64,000 nt of DNA from Lachnospiraceae bacterium (GTDB lineage: Bacteria > Bacillota > Clostridia > Lachnospirales > Lachnospiraceae), in the NCBI GenBank assembly GCA_022483465.1, contig JAKVNF010000004.1, positions 371,713 through 435,712 of the forward strand, written 5' to 3'. The translations under genes and the position numbers were made by a program. Below, piece after piece: positions 3,652 to 39,482 of the stretch (the stretch's first letter is position 1; every line of letters starts with the position of its first letter). Below the pieces are notes generated by a model. It worked only from the letters and a program-made list of their open reading frames with translations. It did no database searches and was not told the origin of the DNA.

Positions 3652-5919
3652 TCAGAGTGCCTCGTGGCAGGTTCTGGCGATGACGTCGAGCTGCTGCTCC
3701 CTTGTCAGGCTGATGAACTTGACCGCATAGCCGGAGACACGGATCGTGAAGTTTGCGTACTCGGGCTTCTCCGGGTGCTCCATGGCATCCACGAGCTTCT
3801 CCCTGCCAAAGACGTTGACGTTCAGATGGTGGGCACCGTTTGCAAAGTAGCCGTCCATCACCTGGACCAGGGTCTTGGCCCGCTCATCCTCGCTGTGGCC
3901 GAGGGCAGAGGGGTTCATGGTCTGGGTGTTGGAGATGCCGTCCAGGGACCACTCATAGGGGATCTTCGCGACAGAGTTGAGCGAAGCCAGCAGGCCGTTC
4001 TGCTCTGCGCCGTAGCTCGGTGATGCACCGGGAGCAAAAGGCGTGAAGGCCTTTCTTCCATCCGGAGTAGCGCCGGTCGCCTTGCCGTAGACCACGTTTG
4101 AGGTGATCGTCGGGATCGAGGTGGTGGGCTCGGAGTTCCGGTAGGTGTGGTGCTTGCGGATCTTGGTCATGAAGCTCTTTAAGAGCTCGACACCGATGGC
4201 ATCCGCCCGGTCATCGTCGTTTCCGTACTTCGGGAAGTCTCCCTCCACCTGATAGTCCACAACGAGGCCGTTCTCATCGCGGATCGTCTTCACCTTTGCG
4301 TACTTGATGGCAGACAGGGAGTCGATCACGTGGGAGAAGCCCGCAATGCCGGTGGCAAAGGTCCGTCTCACGTCGGTGTCGATGAGCGCCATCTCCGCCG
4401 CCTCGTAGTAGTACTTGTCATGCATGTACTGGATCAGGTTCAGGATGTTGACGTAGAGGCCTGCAAGCCAGTCGAGCATGCGGTCGTACTTCTCCATCAC
4501 CTCATCGTAGTCCAGGTACTCCGAAGTGATCGGGGCATAGGGCGGTGCCACCTGCATGTGCTTTCCGCTCTTGTCCGTGAACTTCTCGTCCACGCCGCCG
4601 TTGATCGCATACAGAAGAGCCTTGGCGAGGTTTGCTCTTGCGCCAAAGAACTGCATCTCCTTGCCGGTCTGGGTTGCAGACACGCAGCAGCAGATGGAGT
4701 AGTCATCACCCCAGATCGGACGCATCACGTCGTCGTTCTCGTACTGGATGGAGCTGGTGCGGACCGAGATCCGCGCCGCGTAGGTCCGGAAGTTCTCGGG
4801 AAGGCGCTTGGAGTACAGCACCGTCAGGTTCGGCTCCGGAGCGGGTCCCATGTTCTCGAGGGTGTGCAGGAAGCGGTAGTCGTTCTTTGTCACCATGTGG
4901 CGGCCGTCCTGCCCAAGGCCTGCGACCTCCAGGGTTGCCCAGACCGGGTCGCCGGAGAACAGCTGGTTGTAGGAGGGGATTCTCGCGAACTTGACCATGC
5001 GCAGCTTCATGACGAAGTGGTCAATGAGCTCCTGGGCCTCCTGCTCGGTGATTCTGCCCTCGTTGAGATCCCGCTGGATGTAGATGTCGAGGAAGGTGGA
5101 AACTCTTCCCACGCTCATTGCGGCGCCGTTCTGGGTCTTGATGGCTGCCAGATATCCGAAGTAGAGCCACTGGACGGCCTCCTTGGCGGTCGTGGCAGGC
5201 CCCGAGATGTCATAGCCGTAGCTCTCTGCCATCTTCTTCATGCCCTGCAGGGCGCGGATCTGATCGGCGAGTTCCTCTCTCTGGCGGATCACGTCATCGG
5301 TCATGGTGCCGTCGCCGCAGTTTGCCAGGTCCTCCTTCTTCTTCGCGATCAGGTAGTCGATGCCGTAGAGGGCAACCCGGCGGTAGTCGCCGACAATACG
5401 GCCTCTGCCGTAGGTGTCCGGAAGTCCGGTCACGATGTGGCAGTGGCGGGCCACGCGCATCTCATCGGTGTAGGCATCGAACACCGCCTGGTTGTGGGTC
5501 TTGTGGTACTCGGTGAAGATCTTGTGGAATTTCGGATTCACCTCAAACCCGTAGGTGGAGGCAGCCTCCTCCGCCATCTTGATGCCGCCGTAGGGCATGA
5601 AGGCGCGCTTTAAGGGCTTGTCGGTCTGCAGGCCCACGATCTGCTCCAGATCCTTGGTCTTCTCGTCGATGTAGCCCGGGCCATAGGCGGTCAGGCCGGA
5701 GACCACCTCGGTCTCGCAGTCGAGCACACCGTTATGCTCGCGCTCTGCCTTCTGGAGCTGCTGCAGCTCTCCCCAGAGGGTATCCGTCGCCTTGGTCGGT
5801 CCCTCGAGAAAGCTCTCATCCCCGTCGTACTGAGTATAGTTGTTCTGGATGAAATCCCGGACGTTGACGTCCGTTCTCCAGTGTGTACCGGTAAAACCTC
5901 TCCATGCTTCCTGTGCCAT
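3652..5919 (-). CDS. pflB: Formate C-acetyltransferase (pyruvate formate-lyase)
   Basis: A 755-residue glycyl-radical enzyme that converts pyruvate and CoA to acetyl-CoA and formate in the cytoplasm, the main anaerobic pyruvate-cleaving route of fermenters. The adjacent catalytic cysteines are in [12 protein letters not shown]. The radical glycine is in RVSGYAV near the C-terminus. Length is typical of PFL rather than of glycerol- or choline-type lyases. The ATG follows GAAAGGAG. It lies 45 bp downstream of pflA on the same strand, so the two are probably co-transcribed from the FNR-type promoter upstream of pflA; a separate pflB promoter was not seen in the gap. Confidence 0.97.
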
Positions 5920-25328: not shown

Positions 25329-26714
25329 ATGAACTTTACCGTTTATTGCAAAGACAACGCCCCGGCTCCGGACCTCTCCCGGCTCGCCCATTGCCTTACA
25401 GGGGAGGGGGACTGGGACCTTCTCTGCGTGGCAGGGGATCCTGCTGCCCCTGCTGCCGCAATGGGAGCCGGCAGGCAGGGAGATGGAGACTTTGCGCTGA
25501 CACTCGTCGCCCTCTCCCCTAAAGAGGAGCCGGGCGCAATTCTCTCGGAGCTTTTCGATCACCTCGCGGAGGCGCTCTCTTCCGGAAACCGGCAGGGAAA
25601 GCTCTTCCTTACCGAATCCCGGATTCTTCCCGCCTTTGCGCCAACAATCCGCCCCCTCTTTTCCCACGCCGGGGCCGGAATCCTCTCCCGTCCCCTCTTC
25701 TGGAACGACATCACCGATGTCCCCGGCGTGCGGGTGGGGCAGGTGACAAAGGAGGAGGGCGCCCATCACACCGGGGTCACGGTGATCCTCCCCTGCAGCG
25801 GGAACATCTATGAGCAAAAGCCCGTCGGCGCCTCCTTTGTCTTGAACGGCTTTGGGAAGACCATGGGCACCATCCAACTGGAGGAGCTCGGCACCCTGGA
25901 GACCCCGATCGCCCTGACAAACACCCTGTGCGTCGGGAGGGCGGCGGACGGCCTGGTCACCTACACCCTCCGGGAGGGGGAAAAGAGGGGCGCACGGATC
26001 ACCACCGTGAACCCGGTGGTTGGAGAGACCAACGACGGCACGATCAGCGCCATTGAGGACCGGGTCATTGCCCCGGAGGATGTCCTTGCCGCCATCGACC
26101 GGGCGGGAAAGCACCCGCAGCTTGGCTGCGTCGGCGCGGGAACCGGGACCATCTGCTTTGGCCTAAAGGGCGGCATCGGCTCCGCATCGAGAAGGATCCG
26201 CATCGGGCAGGACACCTACACCCTGGGCGCCCTCGTGCAGACCAACTTCGGACGGCTCCCGGATCTTGTCATCCGCGGCGTTCCCGTCGGGAAGAAGATC
26301 CTGGAGCGGCAGAAGGGGGAAGCACCCCTGTCCCCGGAGAAGGGCTCTGTCATGGTGGTTCTCGGCACAGACCTTCCCCTCACGGCAAGGCAGCTCCGGC
26401 GCGTGTTGAAAAGAGCAGGCGCTGCCCTCGCGCGGCTTGGCTCCTACTACGGCCAGGGAAGCGGCGACGTGTTTCTCGGCTTTTCCAGCGGGAACTGCCA
26501 TCCAGACGGAAATGGCCCCGCGCTGCAGACCCTCTCGTGCCTTCCGGAGAACGAGATGGATCTTGTCTTTCGGCCCGCTGTGGAGGCGGTGGAGGAGGCG
26601 ATTCTTCGCTCCCTCCTCTTCGCCGGCTGGCGGACCGCCCGGGACGGCACCGTCATTCACGCGCTCTTTGAGTACGCGGATCTTCTCCCGGACGGGATCC
26701 TCACGCTTTTTTGA
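25329..26714 (+). CDS. P1 family peptidase (DmpA/BapA, S58) with N-terminal extension
   Basis: A 461-residue protein. From about residue 128 it follows the self-processing DmpA aminopeptidase family: NDITDVPGVRVGQVTKEEGA, LTNTLCVGRAADGLV, VVGETNDGTISAI, GAGTGTICFGLKGGIGSAS, and the later LGTDLPLTARQLRRV and GSGDVFLGFSSGN segments. Family members hydrolyse N-terminal D- or beta-amino acids from small peptides. The first 125 residues have no counterpart in typical members and no signal peptide. GATCAGGAGG precedes the ATG. Its 3' end overlaps the convergent LysR gene by 14 bp. Confidence 0.88.
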   Translation: MNFTVYCKDNAPAPDLSRLAHCLTGEGDWDLLCVAGDPAAPAAAMGAGRQGDGDFALTLVALSPKEEPGAILSELFDHLAEALSSGNRQGKLFLTESRILPAFAPTIRPLFSHAGAGILSRPLFWNDITDVPGVRVGQVTKEEGAHHTGVTVILPCSGNIYEQKPVGASFVLNGFGKTMGTIQLEELGTLETPIALTNTLCVGRAADGLVTYTLREGEKRGARITTVNPVVGETNDGTISAIEDRVIAPEDVLAAIDRAGKHPQLGCVGAGTGTICFGLKGGIGSASRRIRIGQDTYTLGALVQTNFGRLPDLVIRGVPVGKKILERQKGEAPLSPEKGSVMVVLGTDLPLTARQLRRVLKRAGAALARLGSYYGQGSGDVFLGFSSGNCHPDGNGPALQTLSCLPENEMDLVFRPAVEAVEEAILRSLLFAGWRTARDGTVIHALFEYADLLPDGILTLF

Positions 26715-27588
26715 GGACCTGGTCCTCCCGCGCAAAGGCGATGAACCGCCTTGCGGCGGGGGAGGCCTCCTTCAGGGAGGGGACCGCAATGCCGAGGCTG
26801 ATGTACTGCGGCGGGTCAAAGGGCACTTCAAAGACCCTGCCGTGCCACTCCTTCGAGATCAGCCGCTGGTGGAAGCTGATTCCAAGGCCTGCCGCCACCA
26901 TCTGGTAGGTGACAAAGCCTTCCTTTGTCGTAAACCGGGTGTCCGGGTGCAGGTGCCACCTGGCAAGGAGCCGGTCCTGGTCCGTGTCCTCCCCGGGGTG
27001 GGTGTGGATGAAGCACTCGGCATTGAGGTTTTGGACGGGATAGAAAGAAGCCCTTGCCAGCGGGTGGGATTCGGGAAGCCACATGACGAGCTCGTCCCGG
27101 TAGAGGGGAATCCAGTCGATGCCGGAAGGCCCTTCCGGGTTTTCACTAGCGCAGAAGCAGCAGTCCACGGCGCGCTCCCGAAACCAGTGCAGGAGTTCTG
27201 CGTTGCTCCCCTCCTGCACGCTGACCCGGATGCCAGGATAGGCCGCAAGGAACCGGCTCAGGATCTGCGGCAGCCACATGGCGGAGATGGAGAAGTAGCT
27301 CCCGATGTGGAGGGTGCCGCACACCATGCCCCGGATCTCGGCGCTTCGCTCCTCAACATCCCGCTCTGCCTTTGCCACCGCGCGAAGGAGCGGGATCATG
27401 TCCTTTCCGTTGTCGGTCAGAACCACGCCCCGCTTGCTGCGCAGGAACAGGGGAAACCCCAGCTCCTCCTCCAGGCTCCCGATCATCCGGGTGATGCCGG
27501 ACTGGGTGTAGCCCAGCCGCTCTGCCGCCGCGGTAAAGCTCCCGGTGTCCGCGGCCGCAAGAAACGCCTCACAGTGTATGCTGTCCAT
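26701..27588 (-). CDS. LysR-family transcriptional regulator
   Basis: A 295-residue regulator; the N-terminal winged helix has GSFTAAAERLGYTQSGITRMIGS-type recognition helix, and the rest is the two-lobed effector domain. Start at 27588 follows GAAAGGAG. It is divergent from threonine aldolase, and a perfect palindrome lies between them, so it probably controls the aldolase and itself. Confidence 0.92.
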   Translation of the reverse strand: MDSIHCEAFLAAADTGSFTAAAERLGYTQSGITRMIGSLEEELGFPLFLRSKRGVVLTDNGKDMIPLLRAVAKAERDVEERSAEIRGMVCGTLHIGSYFSISAMWLPQILSRFLAAYPGIRVSVQEGSNAELLHWFRERAVDCCFCASENPEGPSGIDWIPLYRDELVMWLPESHPLARASFYPVQNLNAECFIHTHPGEDTDQDRLLARWHLHPDTRFTTKEGFVTYQMVAAGLGISFHQRLISKEWHGRVFEVPFDPPQYISLGIAVPSLKEASPAARRFIAFAREDQVLKKA

Positions 27589-27598
27589 GCCGCTCCTT

Positions 27599-27666
27599 TC
27601 ATGACGTTTCGTCATGATAAATATGTAAAATTGCTGTTTGTGTCATGACTGGGATCACTGTACAAT
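27599..27666 (+). promoter_or_regulatory. LysR operator and threonine aldolase promoter
   Basis: Perfect inverted repeat TCATGACG-TTT-CGTCATGA (27599-27617), partly repeated as GTCATGAC at 27642. Promoter TTGTGT (27638-27643), 17-bp spacer, TACAAT (27661-27666). Confidence 0.65.
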
Positions 27667-27717
27667 GCGGAGGAATCGAAAGCCAATCCGGTGCCGGCAG
27701 AGAATGGGAGGCAATTC

Positions 27718-28761
27718 ATGACAACAGAATCCGAAAAACTCAACTTTTCCTGTGATTACCTGGAGGGCTGCCATCCGAACATCCTCCAGCGCCTTATGCA
27801 GACCAACCTGATCAAGATGAACGGCTACGGCGAGGACCCCTGCTCAAAGAGCGCACAGGACCGCATCCGAAAGGCCTGCGGCGCGCCCGGCGCCGAGGTC
27901 CGGTTCCTTGCGGGCGGCACGCAGATCAACGCGGTCATGATCGACGCGCTGCTTGCCTCCTACCAGGGCGTGATCGCGGCAGAGAGCGGCCACGTCGCGG
28001 TCCACGAGGCGGGTGCCATCGAGGCAGGCGGCCACAAGGTGCTCACCCTACCCGGAAAGGACGGGAAGCTCTCCGCCGATGCGATCCGCGCCTTTGTGGA
28101 GGACTTTGCCGCGGACCCCAACCACGACCACGAGGTTTGGCCCGGGATGGTTTACCTCTCCCAGCCCACCGAGTTCGGCACCCTCTACTCCCTCGAGGAG
28201 CTCACCGCCATCAGCAAGGTCTGCCATGACAACCGCCTCGTTCTCTACGTCGACGGGGCAAGGCTTGCCTATGCCCTGGCAAGCCCGGAAAATGATGTCA
28301 CGCTCCCGGACCTTGCCCGGCTCTGCGACGCGTTCTACATCGGCGGCACCAAGTGCGGCGCCCTCTGCGGGGAGGCCGCGGTTGTCCCGCATCCGGAGCT
28401 CATTCCCCACTTCTTCACGATCATCAAGCAGCACGGCGCGCTGACGGCAAAGGGAAGGCTCCTCGGCATCCAGTTCGACGAGCTCTTCCGGGATGACCTG
28501 TACCTCCACATCGGAGGGAGCGCTGTCCTGTACGCCCAGGAGCTGAAGAAGGCCCTGCAGGAAAAGGGGTATCCCCTCTACCTGGATTCCCCGACCAACC
28601 AGATCTTCTTTGTCATCGACAGCAGGCAGCGGGAACGCCTCTCTGCGCAAGTGGAATTCAGCATCTTTGAAAAGCTCGATGCGGACCACTATGCCGCGCG
28701 CCTTGCCACCAGCTGGGCAAGCAGCAAAGAGGATGTAAAGCGCCTGATCGCCCTTCTCTGA
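27718..28761 (+). CDS. ltaE: Low-specificity L-threonine aldolase
   Basis: A 347-residue PLP enzyme of the beta-eliminating-lyase fold that cleaves L-threonine/L-allo-threonine to glycine and acetaldehyde. Substrate and cofactor motifs: AESGHVAVHEAGAIEAGGHK, YVDGARLAYAL, and the PLP lysine in YIGGTKCGALCGE. Start at 27718 has GGGAGG six bases upstream. It probably supplies glycine or degrades threonine under LysR control. Confidence 0.92.
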   Translation: MTTESEKLNFSCDYLEGCHPNILQRLMQTNLIKMNGYGEDPCSKSAQDRIRKACGAPGAEVRFLAGGTQINAVMIDALLASYQGVIAAESGHVAVHEAGAIEAGGHKVLTLPGKDGKLSADAIRAFVEDFAADPNHDHEVWPGMVYLSQPTEFGTLYSLEELTAISKVCHDNRLVLYVDGARLAYALASPENDVTLPDLARLCDAFYIGGTKCGALCGEAAVVPHPELIPHFFTIIKQHGALTAKGRLLGIQFDELFRDDLYLHIGGSAVLYAQELKKALQEKGYPLYLDSPTNQIFFVIDSRQRERLSAQVEFSIFEKLDADHYAARLATSWASSKEDVKRLIALL

Positions 28762-28889: not shown

Positions 28890-31313
28890 TTACTGTGCGG
28901 TGCGGAAGGCTGCGACAAAGGCCTTGGCCTCGTCGGCGCTCATGCCCTTTTCGCTCTCGAGCTGCTTCTCGTACCAGTCATAAACGCTTGCGGAGGCATC
29001 CTCCAGGCCGGACAGATCCATCTCCTCCGCGGTGGTCACCTTCATGACGCCGGAGTCGGTCCACTCCTGCACCAGGGATGCCACATCCGCCCGGTTGATG
29101 GCGATCTGGTAGGCGACGGCCTTCTTGGCATTCTCATCGATCACGGCCTGCTGCTCCGGTGTGAACTGGTCATACGCCTTCTGGTTGATGCAGAAGAAGA
29201 TGCAGTCGTAGTAGGCGTTCCACAGGCAGATGTAGTCCTGCACATCCTGCACCGAGGCGGAGTCGATGGAGGTCTCCGGGTTCTCCTGGCCGTCGATCGT
29301 CCCCTGCTGCAGGGCGGTGTAGGTCTCCGACCAGTTCATCGCGGTCGCGCTGCAGTTCCACGCCTTGTAGATCTGGGCGCAGAGGTCGTTGGAGCTGATG
29401 CGGATCTTGAGATCCTTGAGATCATCGATGGACTTCACCTCGTGCCGGGAGTTTGTGAGCTGCCTAAAACCGTTCTCTCCGATGCCCTCGCAGACCAGGC
29501 CGTACTCGGCCAGGGTGTCCTTCATCTCCTGTCCGCCGGCGCCCTGCAGGACATCGTCCACGTCGTCGTAGTCGGTGTACAGGAAGGGGAGCGACACGGC
29601 GTTGAACCGCGGATCAAAGTTGGCGTAGATCAGGTTGGAGTGGAGGGAGACCTGAATCGTGTCGCCGTCCATCAGCGCCTGGATGCCCGCCACCTGGTCT
29701 CCGTTGGTCAGCTGCTCTCCGGGGTAGACATCCACCTTGAACTGCCCCGCGGTGGACTGCTGCATCAGGGCGTTGAAGTAGTAGCCCGCCTGGGCCCAGG
29801 TGCAGGCCTCTCCCGGCGAGCAGTCGAAGTTCCAGGTCGTCGCGGGCCAGGGATCGCTCCCCGTGTAGACCGCGGCATTCTTCTGCGCGTCGTAATCCGC
29901 GGAATCCTCGTAGTCGTGATAGGTCAGGCCGTTCTGCGTGATCATCGAGGTGCCGGAGCCGGTGGAGGCCGTGTCATGCACAAACAGAAGGCTCACCCGC
30001 GGGACATAGGTCACGACAACGAGCACCGCAAGGCACGCTGCCACCATCGGCATCACCGCGCGGGAGATCTGGGGGAGGGTCACCTGCACGAAGCGCTCTG
30101 CCTTTTCCTTCAGGGACGCCGCGGCATCCTTCACCCGAAGGCCCATGGCGACAAACAGGTTGACGCCGACGGGCGGTGTCACCTGGCCGATGGCCAGGTT
30201 CACCGTGGAGAGGACGCCGAAGGCGATCAGGCTGTAGCCGAGCTGCTGTGCGACCGGCGCCATGACCGGGATGAAGATGTACATGGCGGAGTTCGCGTCG
30301 ATAAAGCAGCCGGCGATCAGGAAGATCACGTTGACAATGAGCAGGAAGACCACCTTATTCGTCGAGACGGAGGCGAGCAGCGCCTGGGCGGCAGAGGAGA
30401 TGCCAAACAGCGTGCAGCAGTAGGAAAACAGCGACGCGGAGGCGACAATCAGGAGAATCCCGCCAGAGGTCTTGGCGGACTCCACCAGGAGTCCCGGCAG
30501 GTCCTTCAGGTGAATCTCCCGGTACACGAACATGCCGATCACCAGGCCGTACACCACGGAGACGGCTGCCGCCTCGGTGGGGGTGAAGATGCCGCCGTAG
30601 ATGCCGCCCAGGATGATGACCGGCATCAGGATGCCCCAGAAGGCCTCCCGGAAGCTCTTCCAGCGCTCCTTTCCAGAGCGCTTCTCATGGACGGGCTGGA
30701 TGTTCTTTCTTCTCGCCTCGATGGCCACCACGACGCACAGGGCAGCGCCCATCAGGATGCCGGGGATGATGCCCGCCATGAACATGTCACCCACGTTGAC
30801 GCCGACAATGGAGGCGTAGACGACAAAGGCGATGGAGGGCGGGATGACGATGGCAATGGAGCTCGAGGCAGCCAGGAGCGCCTCGGAGAACGCCGGAGAG
30901 AAGCCGGAGGCGATCATCGCGGGGATCAGGACCGCGCCGAGGGCCGCCACCGTGGCCGGGCCGGAGCCGGAGATCGCGCCGAAGAAACAGGCGACGACCA
31001 CGCAGGTCATGGCCATGCCGCCCCGCCGGTGGCCGATCAGGTCATCGATGAAGGAGACCAGGCGCCGGGAGATGCCGGCCTTGGCCATGATGTTGCCGGA
31101 CAGCACGAAGAACGGAATCGCGAGGAGCAGGAACTTGGCGATGCCGGTGTAGGTGTTGGTTGCGATCACCGACAGCGTCAGGGACTGATACTGCGGGACA
31201 AAGTTCATCGCGTACAGGATCGCGATCATCGAGGACATGCCAAGGCACAGGGCAATCGGCATGCCGACAAACAAAAGGACAAAGAAGGAGACAAAGAGAA
31301 TTGCGGTGATCAC
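28890..31313 (-). CDS. TRAP transporter fusion: DctM large permease plus DctP solute-binding protein
   Basis: A single 807-residue frame. About residues 1-430 form the DctM permease, with many membrane helices and motifs such as FFGAISGSGPATVAALG, IVIPPSIAFVVYAS and GQVTPPVGVNLFVA. A further hydrophobic helix (VAACLAVLVVVTYVP) follows, then an extracytoplasmic linker, and from about residue 465 a complete DctP-type binding domain with VDVYPGEQLTNGDQ, the ligand Arg region LKDLKIRISS, and GTIDGQENP. The binding domain has no signal peptide of its own, so the extra helix must export it. It overlaps dctQ by ATGA. TRAP systems use Na+ gradients to import organic acids, usually with a free DctP. 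Confidence 0.9.
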   Translation of the reverse strand: MITAILFVSFFVLLFVGMPIALCLGMSSMIAILYAMNFVPQYQSLTLSVIATNTYTGIAKFLLLAIPFFVLSGNIMAKAGISRRLVSFIDDLIGHRRGGMAMTCVVVACFFGAISGSGPATVAALGAVLIPAMIASGFSPAFSEALLAASSSIAIVIPPSIAFVVYASIVGVNVGDMFMAGIIPGILMGAALCVVVAIEARRKNIQPVHEKRSGKERWKSFREAFWGILMPVIILGGIYGGIFTPTEAAAVSVVYGLVIGMFVYREIHLKDLPGLLVESAKTSGGILLIVASASLFSYCCTLFGISSAAQALLASVSTNKVVFLLIVNVIFLIAGCFIDANSAMYIFIPVMAPVAQQLGYSLIAFGVLSTVNLAIGQVTPPVGVNLFVAMGLRVKDAAASLKEKAERFVQVTLPQISRAVMPMVAACLAVLVVVTYVPRVSLLFVHDTASTGSGTSMITQNGLTYHDYEDSADYDAQKNAAVYTGSDPWPATTWNFDCSPGEACTWAQAGYYFNALMQQSTAGQFKVDVYPGEQLTNGDQVAGIQALMDGDTIQVSLHSNLIYANFDPRFNAVSLPFLYTDYDDVDDVLQGAGGQEMKDTLAEYGLVCEGIGENGFRQLTNSRHEVKSIDDLKDLKIRISSNDLCAQIYKAWNCSATAMNWSETYTALQQGTIDGQENPETSIDSASVQDVQDYICLWNAYYDCIFFCINQKAYDQFTPEQQAVIDENAKKAVAYQIAINRADVASLVQEWTDSGVMKVTTAEEMDLSGLEDASASVYDWYEKQLESEKGMSADEAKAFVAAFRTAQ

Positions 31314-31807
31314 TGCTCGTTTCCTCCTTCCTCAGGCTGTTTGGTCATGGCATTGATGAAGTTGCAGGTAAGATGCAGAAGCAGCGAGATGCCGCCGACG
31401 ACGACAAAGAGCCAGAACCAGAGCTTTGGGATGTGCAGGATCGGCGTCAGGGTGTGGTCCGCTGCCATTCTGCCGATGCCCTCCACGGTGAGCACGGCCG
31501 CATAGATCATGGAGCAGACCCAGGAGATGGTCCGCAGGACCTTTTTGGCCTTGGGTCCCACCCGGTCCGGAATCAGGGTCAGGCTGACCAGTCCCCCGTC
31601 CTCCTGGGCCGCCACGCCGGAGCCAAGGAGAGAGATCAGGACAAAGACTGCCACCGTGATCTCCTCGGTAAAGCCCCAGGAGTGCATGAAGATCTTCCTT
31701 GCGATGACATTGCCGAATGTCAGCACCAGGACGAGCACCATGGCCGCCGACAGCACGAATTTCTCGACCGCTGTGACAGCCCGCATAAACTTCTGATACG
31801 CTTTCAT
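31310..31807 (-). CDS. TRAP transporter small permease, DctQ
   Basis: A 165-residue protein with four hydrophobic helices, the usual DctQ layout, and the conserved FGNVIARKIF and WGFTEEITV segments. Start at 31807 follows CGGAGGAGG. It is translationally coupled to the DctM-DctP fusion and is the first gene after the T-box leader. Confidence 0.92.
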   Translation of the reverse strand: MKAYQKFMRAVTAVEKFVLSAAMVLVLVLTFGNVIARKIFMHSWGFTEEITVAVFVLISLLGSGVAAQEDGGLVSLTLIPDRVGPKAKKVLRTISWVCSMIYAAVLTVEGIGRMAADHTLTPILHIPKLWFWLFVVVGGISLLLHLTCNFINAMTKQPEEGGNEQ

Positions 31808-31842
31808 ATGCTTCCTCCTCCGAAAAAGGGTGTGTTCCGGAC

Positions 31843-32194
31843 AAAAAAAATCCCTCAGAATTCGTGTCGGGACTGACCCGGCATCCATTCTAAGGGACGA
31901 AAAATCATGCTTTCCGCGTTACCACCCTTGTTCCGCAAGAGGAGGGCTGTCAGAAAAACAGCATCCTGCTGCGACACTTAGTGCGCACCAACATGCGCAT
32001 TCCCGATCACGGGGGATTCCGGCGAGGCCTACTGGAACCTTTCAGCCTGCTTCTCAGGGAGGATATCCACCGCTCCTTCCGCACCCGCTCTCACCTAACC
32101 GGGCTCTCTGTATCTTCCAAGACGATGGCATTATTCCCATCAACGAATTTGAGGGACTTCTTTTCACTTGTCCGCGATCCGCTCGCGCGGATCT
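31843..32194 (-). ncRNA. T-box leader (tRNA-sensing riboswitch) controlling the TRAP operon
   Basis: Read on the minus strand, the leader has a Stem I distal region with CAGAGAGCCCGGTTAGGTGA followed by GAGCGGG, a specifier-loop candidate GGATATCCTCCCTGAG, and the T-box AGGGTGGTAACGCGG at 31914-31928. The UGGU bulge would pair with a tRNA ending ACCA. Competing terminator: TCCCTTAGAAT (31887-31897) pairs with ATTCTGAGGGA (31851-31861), followed by eight T. By alignment with known leaders the specifier is probably AUC (Ile); other readings of that loop are possible. Binding of uncharged tRNA would favour expression of dctQ-dctMP. Confidence 0.85.
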
Positions 32195-32200
32195 TTTCGG

Positions 32201-32229
32201 ATTATGGACCCGTTTCCAGTTTTTGTCAA
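32201..32229 (-). promoter_or_regulatory. Promoter of the T-box leader
   Basis: TTGACA (32224-32229), 17-bp spacer, CATAAT (32201-32206) on the minus strand, placing the start near 32194. Confidence 0.75.
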
Positions 32230-32333
32230 CGGGATCGGTTTTGTAAGACGGCCGGCATCACATCGGGCGCTTCTGTGATTCGCCTGTGGATATCCAAGTT
32301 CCCCTTTCGATGAACCGATGATAGAGGCCGCAG

Positions 32334-32560
32334 GTGAACTACCCGCAGTTAAAACTGCGGGCTTCGGTGGTTTTTCCACCTCATTTGAGTTGCCTTCAAC
32401 GGTGTCTTATACACAGATGGCTGTGATGCGCCGGAAATCTGGGGCCTAGCCCCATCCGAACCGGATGGTTGGTGCGCCGTTGCTTCTCTATTCACCGCTT
32501 TCGCGGGCAGTCACGGCGATTGATGTTTCTATATGGTTATGCGGCTTGCTCTTGATAATA
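32334..32560 (-). ncRNA. Probable omega RNA (reRNA) of TnpB
   Basis: The 3' end of tnpB and the following 200 bases to the right end form a structured region: CCATCCGGTTCGGATGG, GGGGCTAGGCCCC, GGTGGAAAAACCACC, and the terminal CCCGCAGT/ACTGCGGG hairpin. In IS605 elements this segment is the guide RNA scaffold, and the bases just beyond the right end (plus 32333 downward) serve as guide. Boundaries are approximate. Confidence 0.6.
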
Positions 32561-33733
32561 AAGCCGCAGACCTTCCTCTTTGATGTTGATTGCTGCCTGC
32601 CAGTCGCGATCGATGATATTGCCACAGACAGGGCAGATATACAAACGATCACTTAGCGTCAGATCATCTTTCCTGGAACCGCAATGACAGCATGTTTTGG
32701 ATGATGGATACCATTGATCGATTTTGACAAGTGTATGCCCGAAACGCTTGCATTTGTATTCCAGCATGCGTGTAAACATGCCCCAGCCTACATCCATAAC
32801 AGATTTGCCGAGATGAAGACCTTGTGCCATGGCATGCATATTCAGGTCTTCAATGCAGATCACGTCATAATGATATGCGAGGTTATAGGACAGTTTGTCC
32901 AGAAAATCCCGCCTTTGTGCCGCTATTTTTTCATGCAGCTTTGCGATTTTGTGCTTCTGACGCTCGTAGCGCTTTGATCCGCGTTTCATACCTGACAGCA
33001 CATGCTGAAGTTTTGCAAGTTTCTCTTCCTGCTGACGATAAAACCGTGGAAACTCTGCAGTGTCACCATCACTGTCAACATACAAGTGTTCCAATGACAT
33101 GTCCAATCCGATGGCACGGATACCTTGGTTATCAGTATGCGTGTTTGCAGATGGAGCAGCTTTTGGTTCCTTGTATTCGTACTTGAGTGATACGAAAAAT
33201 CTCCCGTTGCAGTCCATGGAGATGGTGGCTGATTTGAGAACGCCGCCTTTTTTGATTTTGCGGTGCAACTTCAGCTTGATGAGCGTTTTCAGCTTTGGAA
33301 GTTTCAACAACCCGGAGCTTTCATCATAGGTAAGATTGGAGTGTCCTCCATTGCTGACAACGTTTGTTGTGTAGGATTGCGCTTCGTGCTTGCTATGAAA
33401 GCGAGGCATTTTGGCTCTTCCTTCGTAGAAATTGGCCCACGACTGTTCGTATTCGAGCTGAGCATTTGCAAGTGCAAGCGAGTCAGCCTGCTTCAGCCAC
33501 GGGCACTCTTCCTGGTCTTTATAATCCGCAGGAGTGTTATGGAGATGTATCCCCATTTCGTTGTACATGAACAGGTCATCTTCCAGCATGCGGTTTTTGA
33601 GCCACCGTTTGGCGCCAAAATTGAAACGAATAAAGCTGCGCTGATCGGCGGTAGGAACAATTTCGTCTTTATAGCAGATGTAGTAAACGTCTGTATTTGA
33701 TGATTTTGGTTTGTTCTTCTTTTTGACAGCCAT
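32537..33733 (-). CDS. tnpB: RNA-guided endonuclease TnpB
   Basis: A 398-residue TnpB, the ancestor type of Cas12. RuvC motif I Asp is in AIGLDMSLEHLYVDSDG, motif II Glu in VICIEDLNMHAMA and motif III Asp in NIIDRDWQAAINI. The zinc finger CCHCGSRKD...CPVCG lies between II and III. All catalytic residues appear intact. ATG at 33733 is preferred to an upstream TTG, since the decayed copy shares the same MAVKKKN start. It cuts sites next to the TAM and helps retain the element; the shared TTTAA is the TAM candidate. Confidence 0.93.
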   Translation of the reverse strand: MAVKKKNKPKSSNTDVYYICYKDEIVPTADQRSFIRFNFGAKRWLKNRMLEDDLFMYNEMGIHLHNTPADYKDQEECPWLKQADSLALANAQLEYEQSWANFYEGRAKMPRFHSKHEAQSYTTNVVSNGGHSNLTYDESSGLLKLPKLKTLIKLKLHRKIKKGGVLKSATISMDCNGRFFVSLKYEYKEPKAAPSANTHTDNQGIRAIGLDMSLEHLYVDSDGDTAEFPRFYRQQEEKLAKLQHVLSGMKRGSKRYERQKHKIAKLHEKIAAQRRDFLDKLSYNLAYHYDVICIEDLNMHAMAQGLHLGKSVMDVGWGMFTRMLEYKCKRFGHTLVKIDQWYPSSKTCCHCGSRKDDLTLSDRLYICPVCGNIIDRDWQAAINIKEEGLRLYYQEQAA

Positions 33734-33735
33734 AA

Positions 33736-34146
33736 TCAATATGCCTTGTTCTGACGCTCAATGTATTTGCGAATGGTTTCTTCAGAAACATCGCCTACGG
33801 TTTCAACGTAGTACGAATGATTCCAAAGCTGCCCTCTCCACAAATGGTTTCTTAACTCCGGATGCCTTTCAAATAGCATGCGGCCCGAAATGCCCTTCAT
33901 GTATTTGACCAGATTTGTGATCGACAGCTTCGGAGGTGCAGACACGAAGCAATGTACATGGTCAGCAGTGCCGACTTCGCATTCGTGGATGGTGAACCCC
34001 TTATCCTTGGCGACGGAAAGCAGAATAGCTTTCAGGTCCTTCTCAATTTCTGGGGTTAATACCTTCTGTCGGTACTTGACGCACCATACCACATGGTAAT
34101 TGATATTGCACACGCATGTGCGGTAATGCACGAGGTTTGTTTTCAT
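33736..34146 (-). CDS. tnpA: IS200/IS605 Y1 transposase TnpA, copy 2
   Basis: A 136-residue HUH/Y1 transposase, two residues different from the copy at 9849 (Ser for Phe before VAKDKGF and Asn for Ser near the C-terminus). It ends two bases before the tnpB start codon, the normal IS605 arrangement. It excises and inserts single-stranded DNA at the TTTAA target using end hairpins. Confidence 0.95.
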   Translation of the reverse strand: MKTNLVHYRTCVCNINYHVVWCVKYRQKVLTPEIEKDLKAILLSVAKDKGFTIHECEVGTADHVHCFVSAPPKLSITNLVKYMKGISGRMLFERHPELRNHLWRGQLWNHSYYVETVGDVSEETIRKYIERQNKAY

Positions 34147-35059: not shown

Positions 35060-37291
35060 TCATGCTGCCGGGTATGGGCCGACCACCTTTCCATCTCGCA
35101 TCCACCGGCCATTTACCAGGATGGGCTCTGTCTCAGATTGAAAACTGATACCTTTCCCGGCCTGTGTGGCTTCTCGCTGCTTCGCTTCGTACGCCCTGTA
35201 TTCTTCAGACCAGCACATCATCTTTGGAAGATATTCATCTGGGTTGTCTCCCCGCCTCTGATGCTTGGGTATCTCGATGAGGAGATACTGGAAGTAGTAC
35301 TCCGGATCGGCATCATTCAATTCCGCTGTTGTTGCGATGGAGTTCGCAATCATGCGGTCGGTGGCACCTTCATCTGAATACGAAAAGAGACTGCTGTTTC
35401 TTTGCAAAGCAATCCTACGGATGTTTCTTTCGCAGTAAGTGTTGTCCGCAGGTACGTTAGAATCGTAGAGGAAGCTGTCGATGTGACCGCCTTTCTTGCA
35501 ATCCTCAAAGTAGTTCATCGCCTTGCGCATCGTCGCGGTCATCGTTACTCGTTTTGATGGATCAGAGGAAGTACCATGCAGCGAGGCCTGATAGGCCTCC
35601 TCATACTCACAGACGTACTGCCAGGCCAGATCCAGGTGCGGCTTTACGTTTTTGATTCTTCCAGCAACCCGCTCCTCTCCGGACAGGCGCTTGAGCTTCG
35701 TATCCTCGCTCTCGGCAAGGCTGATCTCGCGCAGGATTTTCCATTCCCAGGTCTGTGCCAGCTGTTTTCTGCCCTCCTCCGTTTTCATGAGGTCTTTTGA
35801 GGCCATCTTCACAATAAGCCAGGCAAGAAAGAACGGCCTTCTCAGATGCGCAAGGCAGAATGAGACCACGATCTTTCCTTCAGACTTGCGCTCCAGTTCC
35901 GGATATGCAGCATACTTGTCGTTCTTGCATACGACAGATGCATTTCCTGTCACTGTCGTAGGATCGGGCTCCGTTTCCTGTTCCGGCGGAGTTGTCTGGC
36001 CTGCGGTATCCGAACGATCCGCGTCCTTATCCGGAAGAAAGTCTGCAAACAGTCCATCCAGAAATGACTCAGCCCTGGAGGGATTGAAGAAATATGCGGC
36101 AGCCTTGGGACCTTCCCGCAGCTCACTTGTAATCAGCAGCCAGATATAGGACTTTTCTCCCGGCTTCTCAGCATCATAGATAGATCTCCAGGTGGTTTCA
36201 TCCATCTGAATGTACTTGCCTGTTATGATGAAGCTGACGAGATAATCGAAGACGGGAAGCAGATATCTTGCGGCACAGGTATTGCACCAGTAAACCGTTT
36301 TCTGTGTTTTCATGGGATAGCCCATGTGACAGATCAGAGCAGCGATGCGCTTGTACGGGATGCTCATGCTGGTCAGCATGTAGTACATGAAGGCGACGAT
36401 CTCCGGGGTTGCCCGGGATCCCGGCATGATATATCCCTCGCTGTAGGGCCGGTATAGCGTACGATTCACCTCATGACTGTCAGAATCGGATTTTTCTTCG
36501 TCGCTGACATCCTCTGAGTATGCGATGATTGGTTTCATGATTGTCAGCACGACGACATGAGCCTCCTCTATACTGAGTTTTTCGCTTGCTTCGAATCCCA
36601 GCTTAGATAAAGACTTTGCTTTTTCGATCATTTCCGGAGTCAGATCATCCACATCATAGCTGATTCTGTGCGGGAGATTCTGCGTATCACGCTCCCAGAT
36701 GCCCGGCTTGCGCTTCTGTTTTTCCTTTGATTCATCGGGTATCGGTTTTCTCGGGGGACGGCTGCTCCGCCTGGGTTTCCTGCCTTTTTCGCCAGCTCCG
36801 CCTTTCCTGGACGGATTCTCATCCTGAGTTTTTCCGTCACTGTCTTTCCCATTTTCGTCTGCATTGGCTGGCTCTGCAGGTGCTTCTGTCCCTGTCGTGT
36901 CTTTGGCCTGCTCTCCATCAGCGTCAGACTCTTCGGTGAGCGGATCTGTCTCCACATCCTCGCTGCCGCCTTGTGGAATCCCGGTTTCGAGTTCTTTCCC
37001 AGAGAGCTGCTCGTCCTTTTCCCCAAAGGCTCTCCTACGTCCGAGTTTGTTGTTCTCGTCCTTATTCTGCTCCTTCTGTTTGAGTTCCTCATTTTCCTTT
37101 TGCAGCGCTTTATAATCTTCAGCTGCTTTTTCAGCTGCCTTTATCAGCGCTGCAATGCGGTTCGTCTTGACGATGTCATCCACGATAACCTCACTAAAGA
37201 TGTTCGAGATGTCGCTCGGACTGAAAGCGCCACACTGGTACAGGAGGTTGTACTTATGAAGTCTCTGGACAGGGATCTCGGTTTCCATCAC
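35060..37291 (-). CDS. tnpC: IS66 transposase TnpC
   Basis: A 743-residue DDE transposase, larger than the common 500-540-residue IS66 TnpC because of a long acidic, glutamine- and proline-containing region after the N-terminal coiled coil and a second linker within the catalytic core. Catalytic residues are Asp in YIQMDETTW, Asp in VVCKNDKYAAY and Glu in DNTYCERNIRRIA. The cysteine pair WCNTCAARY belongs to the IS66 zinc region. It overlaps the accessory gene by ATGA. Confidence 0.93.
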   Translation of the reverse strand: MMETEIPVQRLHKYNLLYQCGAFSPSDISNIFSEVIVDDIVKTNRIAALIKAAEKAAEDYKALQKENEELKQKEQNKDENNKLGRRRAFGEKDEQLSGKELETGIPQGGSEDVETDPLTEESDADGEQAKDTTGTEAPAEPANADENGKDSDGKTQDENPSRKGGAGEKGRKPRRSSRPPRKPIPDESKEKQKRKPGIWERDTQNLPHRISYDVDDLTPEMIEKAKSLSKLGFEASEKLSIEEAHVVVLTIMKPIIAYSEDVSDEEKSDSDSHEVNRTLYRPYSEGYIMPGSRATPEIVAFMYYMLTSMSIPYKRIAALICHMGYPMKTQKTVYWCNTCAARYLLPVFDYLVSFIITGKYIQMDETTWRSIYDAEKPGEKSYIWLLITSELREGPKAAAYFFNPSRAESFLDGLFADFLPDKDADRSDTAGQTTPPEQETEPDPTTVTGNASVVCKNDKYAAYPELERKSEGKIVVSFCLAHLRRPFFLAWLIVKMASKDLMKTEEGRKQLAQTWEWKILREISLAESEDTKLKRLSGEERVAGRIKNVKPHLDLAWQYVCEYEEAYQASLHGTSSDPSKRVTMTATMRKAMNYFEDCKKGGHIDSFLYDSNVPADNTYCERNIRRIALQRNSSLFSYSDEGATDRMIANSIATTAELNDADPEYYFQYLLIEIPKHQRRGDNPDEYLPKMMCWSEEYRAYEAKQREATQAGKGISFQSETEPILVNGRWMRDGKVVGPYPAA

Positions 37292-39263: not shown

Positions 39264-39482
39264 TTGAATTTGGCCAAGCCTGTGTTACACTCGTTATAGA
39301 GGGTAGCGGCATTGACCAGCTATCGTGAGCTGCGAAACAGTCTACTGTGTCGGAAGGCAGCCGACTGGGGAGCTCGACCATGGGTTTAGCGATAACCACA
39401 AAACGAATAGGTTCTTAGGAACTGAACGAAAACGCTAGTTTCAAATGTAAAGGGATCTTGCAATGGCAGGATCCCTTTGTTA
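39264..39482 (+). ncRNA. Candidate orphan small RNA with own promoter and terminator
   Basis: Promoter-like TTGAAT (39264-39269), 16-bp spacer, TACACT (39286-39291); then about 150 nt of non-coding, hairpin-rich sequence (for example CAGCTATCGTGAGCTG and GTTCTTAGGAAC); then a terminator AAAGGGATC / GATCCCTTT (39449-39478). The RNA would be about 185 nt. I could not match it to SRP, 6S, tmRNA, RNase P or a riboswitch class. The region 39055-39263 upstream holds only a small hairpin, AAGAGGC-TGAA-GCCTCTT. Confidence 0.4.

Follow-up and report, generated by a model that had tools for sequence, protein, structure and literature searches.

An isoleucine-type T-box riboswitch in front of a TRAP transporter operon in a Lachnospiraceae bacterium

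We identified a transcription-attenuating T-box riboswitch (positions 32152-31890, minus strand) directly upstream of the genes of a tripartite ATP-independent periplasmic (TRAP) transporter in a 64,000-nucleotide (nt) stretch of DNA from a Lachnospiraceae bacterium (assembly GCA_022483465.1, contig JAKVNF010000004.1, positions 371,713 to 435,712), hereafter the window. The riboswitch is almost certainly of the isoleucine type. On balance, we favor a reading in which this tRNA-Ile T-box causes the TRAP importer to be made when isoleucine is short, the cargo being a precursor of isoleucine. Computation showed the T-box itself, the AUC specifier that it carries, and its location ahead of the TRAP genes. 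The RNA itself is an ordinary T-box; its target gene and the regulon are the new part.

The covariance model of the T-box family, RF00230, matched the leader over its full length (model positions 1-219), scoring 78.9 bits with E 1.9e-17 when 601 bases were searched. An earlier sequence-only reading of this DNA, which had proposed this very check, described a promoter of its own (TTGACA-17-CATAAT), the Stem I signature AGAGAGC/GGTGA, and a T-box sequence competing with a terminator, all in front of a TRAP operon. Each of these parts was recovered on the minus strand, with Pfam matches to DctQ, DctM, and DctP directly downstream (Table 1). The promoter agrees with 11 of 12 consensus bases and is the sole promoter-like site in 31780-32340, where shuffled sequences gave a mean of 0.3. 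The terminator folds with -25.5 kcal/mol (z -4.28), a value equalled by 0 of 200 shuffles, and is mutually exclusive with the antiterminator, as both helices use GUCCCUU. A simple terminator scan did not list 31842-31898, probably owing to its loop-size limit.

Table 1. Coordinates of the T-box leader and the TRAP genes in the window
Feature	Position	Strand	Details
Promoter	32201..32229	-	TTGACA 32229-32224, 17-nt spacer, CATAAT 32206-32201
T-box Stem I	32053..32151	-	AGAGAGC 32109-32103, GGTGA 32095-32091; RF00230 alignment
Specifier AUC (isoleucine)	32062..32064	-	C next at 32061; RF00230 alignment
Stem II / IIA-B / Stem III region	31935..32050	-	RF00230 alignment
T-box sequence AAGGGTGGTAACGCGG	31914..31929	-	UGGU 31924-31921, fits A73
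Antiterminator helix	31891..31929	-	fold -9.3 kcal/mol, z -0.76
Intrinsic terminator	31842..31898	-	12-pair stem enclosing a further hairpin, then U8
Ribosome-binding site GAGGAGG of dctQ	31814..31820	-	sequence
dctQ, small TRAP permease subunit, 165 amino acids (aa)	31310..31807	-	Pfam DctQ PF04290, 81.3 bits; start ATG 31807
dctM-dctP fusion, 807 aa	28890..31313	-	PF06808 residues 7-439, PF03480 residues 506-783; TIGR00786, TIGR00787

The isoleucine specificity of the leader is well supported by comparison of sequences. The earlier reading had arrived at isoleucine from the AUC specifier and the UGGU bulge, a call that was ambiguous because it was based on one sequence with C after AUC: the AUCCUC within the window's run AUCCUCCC can be read in other frames as UCC or CCU, and the host encodes a tRNA-Pro(AGG) with A73. 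We therefore compared the leaders of relatives. AUC was shared by all 15 TRAP leaders, counting that of the window, whereas the following base varied (8 A, 4 G, and 3 C); AUC is therefore the only constant frame, which bears the isoleucine call out. According to the available part of the TBDB description, AUC makes up 0.99 of isoleucine specifiers (PMC7778990). By the canonical numbering of the sequences, the host tRNA-Ile(GAU) has A73, which pairs with UGGU, and its tRNA-Thr(GGT) has U73. The host genome itself holds six T-boxes. Three of them, namely the TRAP leader and those of a CstA operon and a BASS operon, have AUC specifiers with UGGU bulges; the thrS leader has ACC with UGGA, and the two leaders before trpE and before a TrpX-like ATP-binding cassette (ABC) receptor have UGG with UGGC.

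To place the arrangement among its relatives, a named genome collection was scanned for relatives of the DctM-DctP protein, which yielded 66 loci. These span Lachnospiraceae, other Clostridia, and Treponema or Spirochaetaceae, with several named as rumen samples, and include Bilifractor porci, [Clostridium] aminophilum, Blautia glucerasea, Butyrivibrio, and Clostridium vitabionis. The nearest relatives of the host are gut and rumen Lachnospiraceae. T-boxes were sought with a Stem I model of our own, R1, for the most part a sequence profile (with 5 base pairs) built from 17 rows: 13 TRAP rows, the window included, and four rows (L006, L054, L139, and L145) picked, unlike the TRAP rows, by a pattern containing ATC. 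Besides the window, 14 of the 66 loci had a T-box upstream of the TRAP genes according to R1, whose next match had E 0.15; since 10 loci have less than 700 nt upstream, the proportion is better given as 14 of 56. The window's Stem I scored 97.7 bits under R1 as one of its training rows. No T-box was found by R1 at any spirochaete locus. A pattern heuristic that R1 replaced had flagged 31 of the 66 loci, mostly as noise.

The covariance model gave scores for the leaders of three relatives: 112.8 and 111.1 bits for L288 and L289, both above the 93-bit gathering threshold, and 55.6 bits for L243, whose 5' end is cut. The four nearest loci (L233-L236), 88-89% identical to the window in DctM-DctP, keep the same leader parts. 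Mapped onto a tree of 60 DctM rows, presence of the T-box requires at least 6 changes, fewer than in all 500 shuffles; the T-box is thus clustered, yet was gained or lost several times. Comparing T-box and TRAP coordinates in 61 relatives revealed no clear further pair among the matches listed, in which the closest other DctM was 51% identical. Neighbor clustering at 49 of the 66 TRAP loci showed no conserved operon partner besides dctQ. Upstream of the TRAP genes in 10 loci, and in the same orientation, is a gene that we named LysE/RhtB-like exporter; it occurs elsewhere nearby in 3 more.

We also surveyed T-boxes in 61 genomes drawn from the genus, which is larger than this sample; the survey gave 208 matches, of which 150 were listed and read, making 151 loci with L006. 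One relaxed specifier-reading rule was applied to all 151; an earlier version had left 13 loci without a reading and had read L054 and L123 poorly, and those loci were inspected by eye. Gene labels in this survey come from recognition of sequence motifs, with profile searches for representatives only. Leaving pheS apart, the rule agreed with the evident amino acid in 106 of 111 loci, or in 100 of 105 without an HMGL-like gene for which leucine was assumed. An AUC specifier was read in 13 of the 151 loci, each with UGGU. Their first genes were a BASS-family sodium symporter (7 loci), a CstA operon (3), the TRAP operon (1), an acyl-CoA synthetase fusion with MbcS as best match (1), and a 2-oxoacid:ferredoxin oxidoreductase operon (1); ileS or ilv was the first gene in 0 of the 13. 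The synthetase (L173:1-2376, minus strand) is a fusion of helix-turn-helix-like, cupin, and AMP-binding parts that is cut at the stretch end, and its MbcS match lies below the cut-off. Matches above their cut-offs were obtained for TIGR02175 and TIGR02179 (oxidoreductase gamma and delta) and for Pfam SBF, CstA, AMP-binding, Cupin_2, POR, and POR_N. A search of the host with POR_N returned one match only, in a 1200-aa frame of the size of pyruvate:ferredoxin oxidoreductase, so that the oxidoreductase route of the relatives is unsupported for the host species.

The AUC target set suggests uptake or assimilation of isoleucine precursors. Possibly, the tRNA-Ile T-box was recruited to an organic-acid assimilation regulon of BASS/PanS-like, CstA, and TRAP transporters, an MbcS-like synthetase, and 2-oxoacid:ferredoxin oxidoreductase, which would serve to make isoleucine from branched-chain or 2-oxo acids that the cell scavenges. 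Two of the three CstA operons carry a small protein in front, between the isoleucine T-box and cstA (206 aa at L003:811-1428, minus strand, and 196 aa at L176:481-1068, plus strand; 76% identical), for which no Pfam match was found. Among the other specifiers of the survey, UGG T-boxes precede a glycerol-dehydrogenase-like gene, named by motif recognition only, in 5 of 151 loci (L135, L165, L200, L213, and L219).

By analogy with the established T-box mechanism, antitermination at the TRAP leader would depend on tRNA. Uncharged tRNA-Ile is expected to bind the AUC specifier by its GAU anticodon and UGGU by its A73-CCA end, stabilizing the antiterminator and allowing RNA polymerase to read into dctQ and dctM-dctP. 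Charged tRNA-Ile would not provide this stabilization, and the 12-pair terminator would end transcription. The importer would thus be made when isoleucine runs short. The sequence-only reading had expected import of an amino acid or of a precursor such as a keto acid. As the cargo we tentatively propose a carboxylate precursor of isoleucine, on account of the other AUC T-box targets and of the nearest solved receptor, 4p8b, which belongs with TRAP receptors for 2-oxo acids or 2-acetolactate. Branched 2-oxo or 2-hydroxy acids may fit best; candidates include 3-methyl-2-oxopentanoate, 2-aceto-2-hydroxybutanoate, and 2-oxobutyrate, and IlvC and/or an aminotransferase could complete the synthesis in the cell.

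A simpler feedback loop, in which the cargo of the TRAP transporter is isoleucine itself or the branched-chain amino acids as a group, has precedents: where a T-box precedes a transporter gene, the amino acid taken up is usually the one that charges the sensed tRNA, the specifier here is AUC, and UGG T-boxes precede a TrpX-like receptor in 17 of the 151 genus loci. We nevertheless consider it unlikely. The other AUC T-boxes of the genus precede BASS, CstA, acyl-CoA synthetase, and oxidoreductase genes, none of them a usual importer of free amino acids, although CstA has also been called a peptide carrier. Moreover, TRAP receptors mostly bind negatively charged carboxylates, as stated in the available part of a TRAP review (PMC5812351), and Arg 163 and Arg 184 are invariant in 40 of 40 receptors. 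There is a slightly greater, though still low, chance that isoleucyl-tRNA charging serves as a general starvation signal, as isoleucine does for CodY in other Firmicutes, and that the targets scavenge organic acids as sources of carbon or energy, without any particular link to the synthesis of isoleucine. CstA (carbon starvation or pyruvate), BASS, and TRAP could all serve carbon supply, and the TRAP operon is without an isoleucine-synthesis enzyme. Two of the AUC targets, however, fit a route to isoleucine: the MbcS-like acyl-CoA synthetase and the oxidoreductase of the pyruvate/2-ketoisovalerate family. Such a route has a rumen context, since the available parts of two reports give 2-methylbutyrate as an isoleucine precursor in rumen microbes and fermentation and propose its reductive carboxylation to isoleucine in a rumen methanogen (PMC2812497, PMC7356843).

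Two further explanations concern the RNA. If the specifier were read in another frame, the leader would sense serine (UCC) or proline (CCU), which the window's own run and the A73 of the host tRNA-Pro(AGG) would permit. This is extremely improbable: with A or G after AUC in 12 of the 15 TRAP leaders, UCC and CCU are not kept whereas AUC is, and in the genus set, the same position holds CCC in both proS T-boxes. That the element is a decayed, non-functional T-box could be argued from its score below gathering, from the C after the specifier, and from L237, which lost most of its T-box. Yet the leader has every part in intact form (promoter, Stem I, specifier, UGGU, antiterminator, and a strong terminator), and L233-L236 retain the same parts; we regard decay as very unlikely.

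Several results weigh against a functional isoleucine T-box that controls import of a precursor. The leader's score of 78.9 bits is below the 93-bit gathering threshold of RF00230, for which reason an Rfam scan of the whole window at gathering did not report the T-box; the six T-boxes of the host genome all fall short of it (64.5-89.9 bits, the thrS leader reaching 89.9). The base after the specifier is usually, if not strictly, a purine, and is C in the window. Folding energies are unexceptional for the whole leader (z -1.46), Stem I (z 0.19), and the antiterminator (Table 1), so that the case rests on the covariance model and on conservation rather than on folding energy. Of the 56 TRAP loci whose upstream sequence was long enough, 42 yielded no T-box with R1, although divergent ones could escape it; together with the at least 6 changes on the tree, this implies that T-box control is not essential to the transporter. 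In C. vitabionis L237 (80% identical), our reading of the sequence at about 4200-4350 is of a T-box remnant in which the antiterminator/terminator-like 3' stretch alone is left, and Rfam detected no T-box in the 1500-nt flanks of ten more distant TRAP loci of relatives.

Similar caution applies to the regulon and the cargo. The window's is the only TRAP gene after a T-box among the 151 genus loci read, and the specifier rule was wrong for 11 of 16 pheS loci, 1 of 15 thrS loci, 2 of 16 trpE loci, and 2 of 19 trpD loci. The matches to the MbcS, PanS, BASS (TIGR00841), and CstA NCBIfam models are below the models' own cut-offs, and neighbor clustering at the same 49 TRAP loci found no conserved enzyme in the TRAP operons. 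The identity of DctP to 4p8b is 28%, and eight receptor entries lie within 1 Z unit, so the fold alone picks no ligand. Finally, the host genome has ilvC and is thus not an obvious isoleucine auxotroph.

The leader shares with isoleucine-type transcriptional T-boxes (RF00230) the Stem I motifs, AUC, the UGGU bulge, and the antiterminator/terminator switch; it differs in that its gene is a TRAP importer, C follows the specifier, and the score is below gathering. With the T-box-controlled TrpX of Streptococcus suis it has in common an uptake system with an extracellular receptor, but TrpX, in the available text of the report, is the receptor of a tryptophan/tyrosine system (PMC9382623), whereas the system here is an ion-driven TRAP transporter, probably for a precursor. 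Uptake of 2-oxo acids by TRAP systems for amino acid synthesis and binding of 2-acetolactate are on record in the accessible part of the TRAP review (PMC5812351). Those transporters belong to the same DctP, DctQ, and DctM families, 4p8b being the entry nearest to our DctP; here, in contrast, DctP sits on the C-terminus of DctM, under a tRNA-Ile T-box, with a putative cargo. In an open-licence library, no paper was found that joins a T-box with a TRAP or tripartite ATP-independent transporter, comparative T-box papers and TBDB lying outside that search. If the reading is correct, ion-driven TRAP importers come under tRNA control, which would give a direct handle on transporters that carry isoleucine precursors. 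AUC T-boxes would then mark candidate genes for precursor uptake or activation (BASS, CstA, TRAP, the MbcS-like synthetase, and the oxidoreductase), and a coherent set of isoleucine T-box targets makes substrate predictions testable.

The operon holds the DctQ, DctM, and DctP domains that together define a DctPQM-type TRAP transporter; its two genes overlap by 4 bases. The fusion of DctP to DctM had been hinted at in the sequence-only reading only by the words "DctP domain". The receptor is in frame with the end of DctM in 23 of 52 translated rows (7 of 7 spirochaete and 16 of 45 others), while in the other 29 the DctM frame stops at 443-448 residues; DctP is a separate gene in L284 and L287, the two of these 29 rows that were inspected. 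T-box leaders occur with both fused and unfused receptors. The only fusions named in the available part of the TRAP review are DctQM and TctAB (PMC5812351). In single frames starting at 5001, L257 (Blautia glucerasea, 1105 aa) has two and L248 (1519 aa) three tandem DctP domains after DctM; by analogy, these chains correspond, among TRAP systems, to ABC transporters with several receptors.

An IS200/IS605-type element (Y1 transposase and OrfB) sits immediately upstream of the T-box promoter, with an IS66 transposase beyond (32537-34146 and 35060-37291, minus strand). On the far side of the TRAP genes, 25329-28758 encodes an S58 family peptidase, a LysR regulator, and a pyridoxal phosphate enzyme resembling beta-eliminating lyases and aldolases. 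The sole Rfam match at gathering in the window is a drum RNA (RF02958, 88.5 bits) at 39327-39440 on the plus strand.
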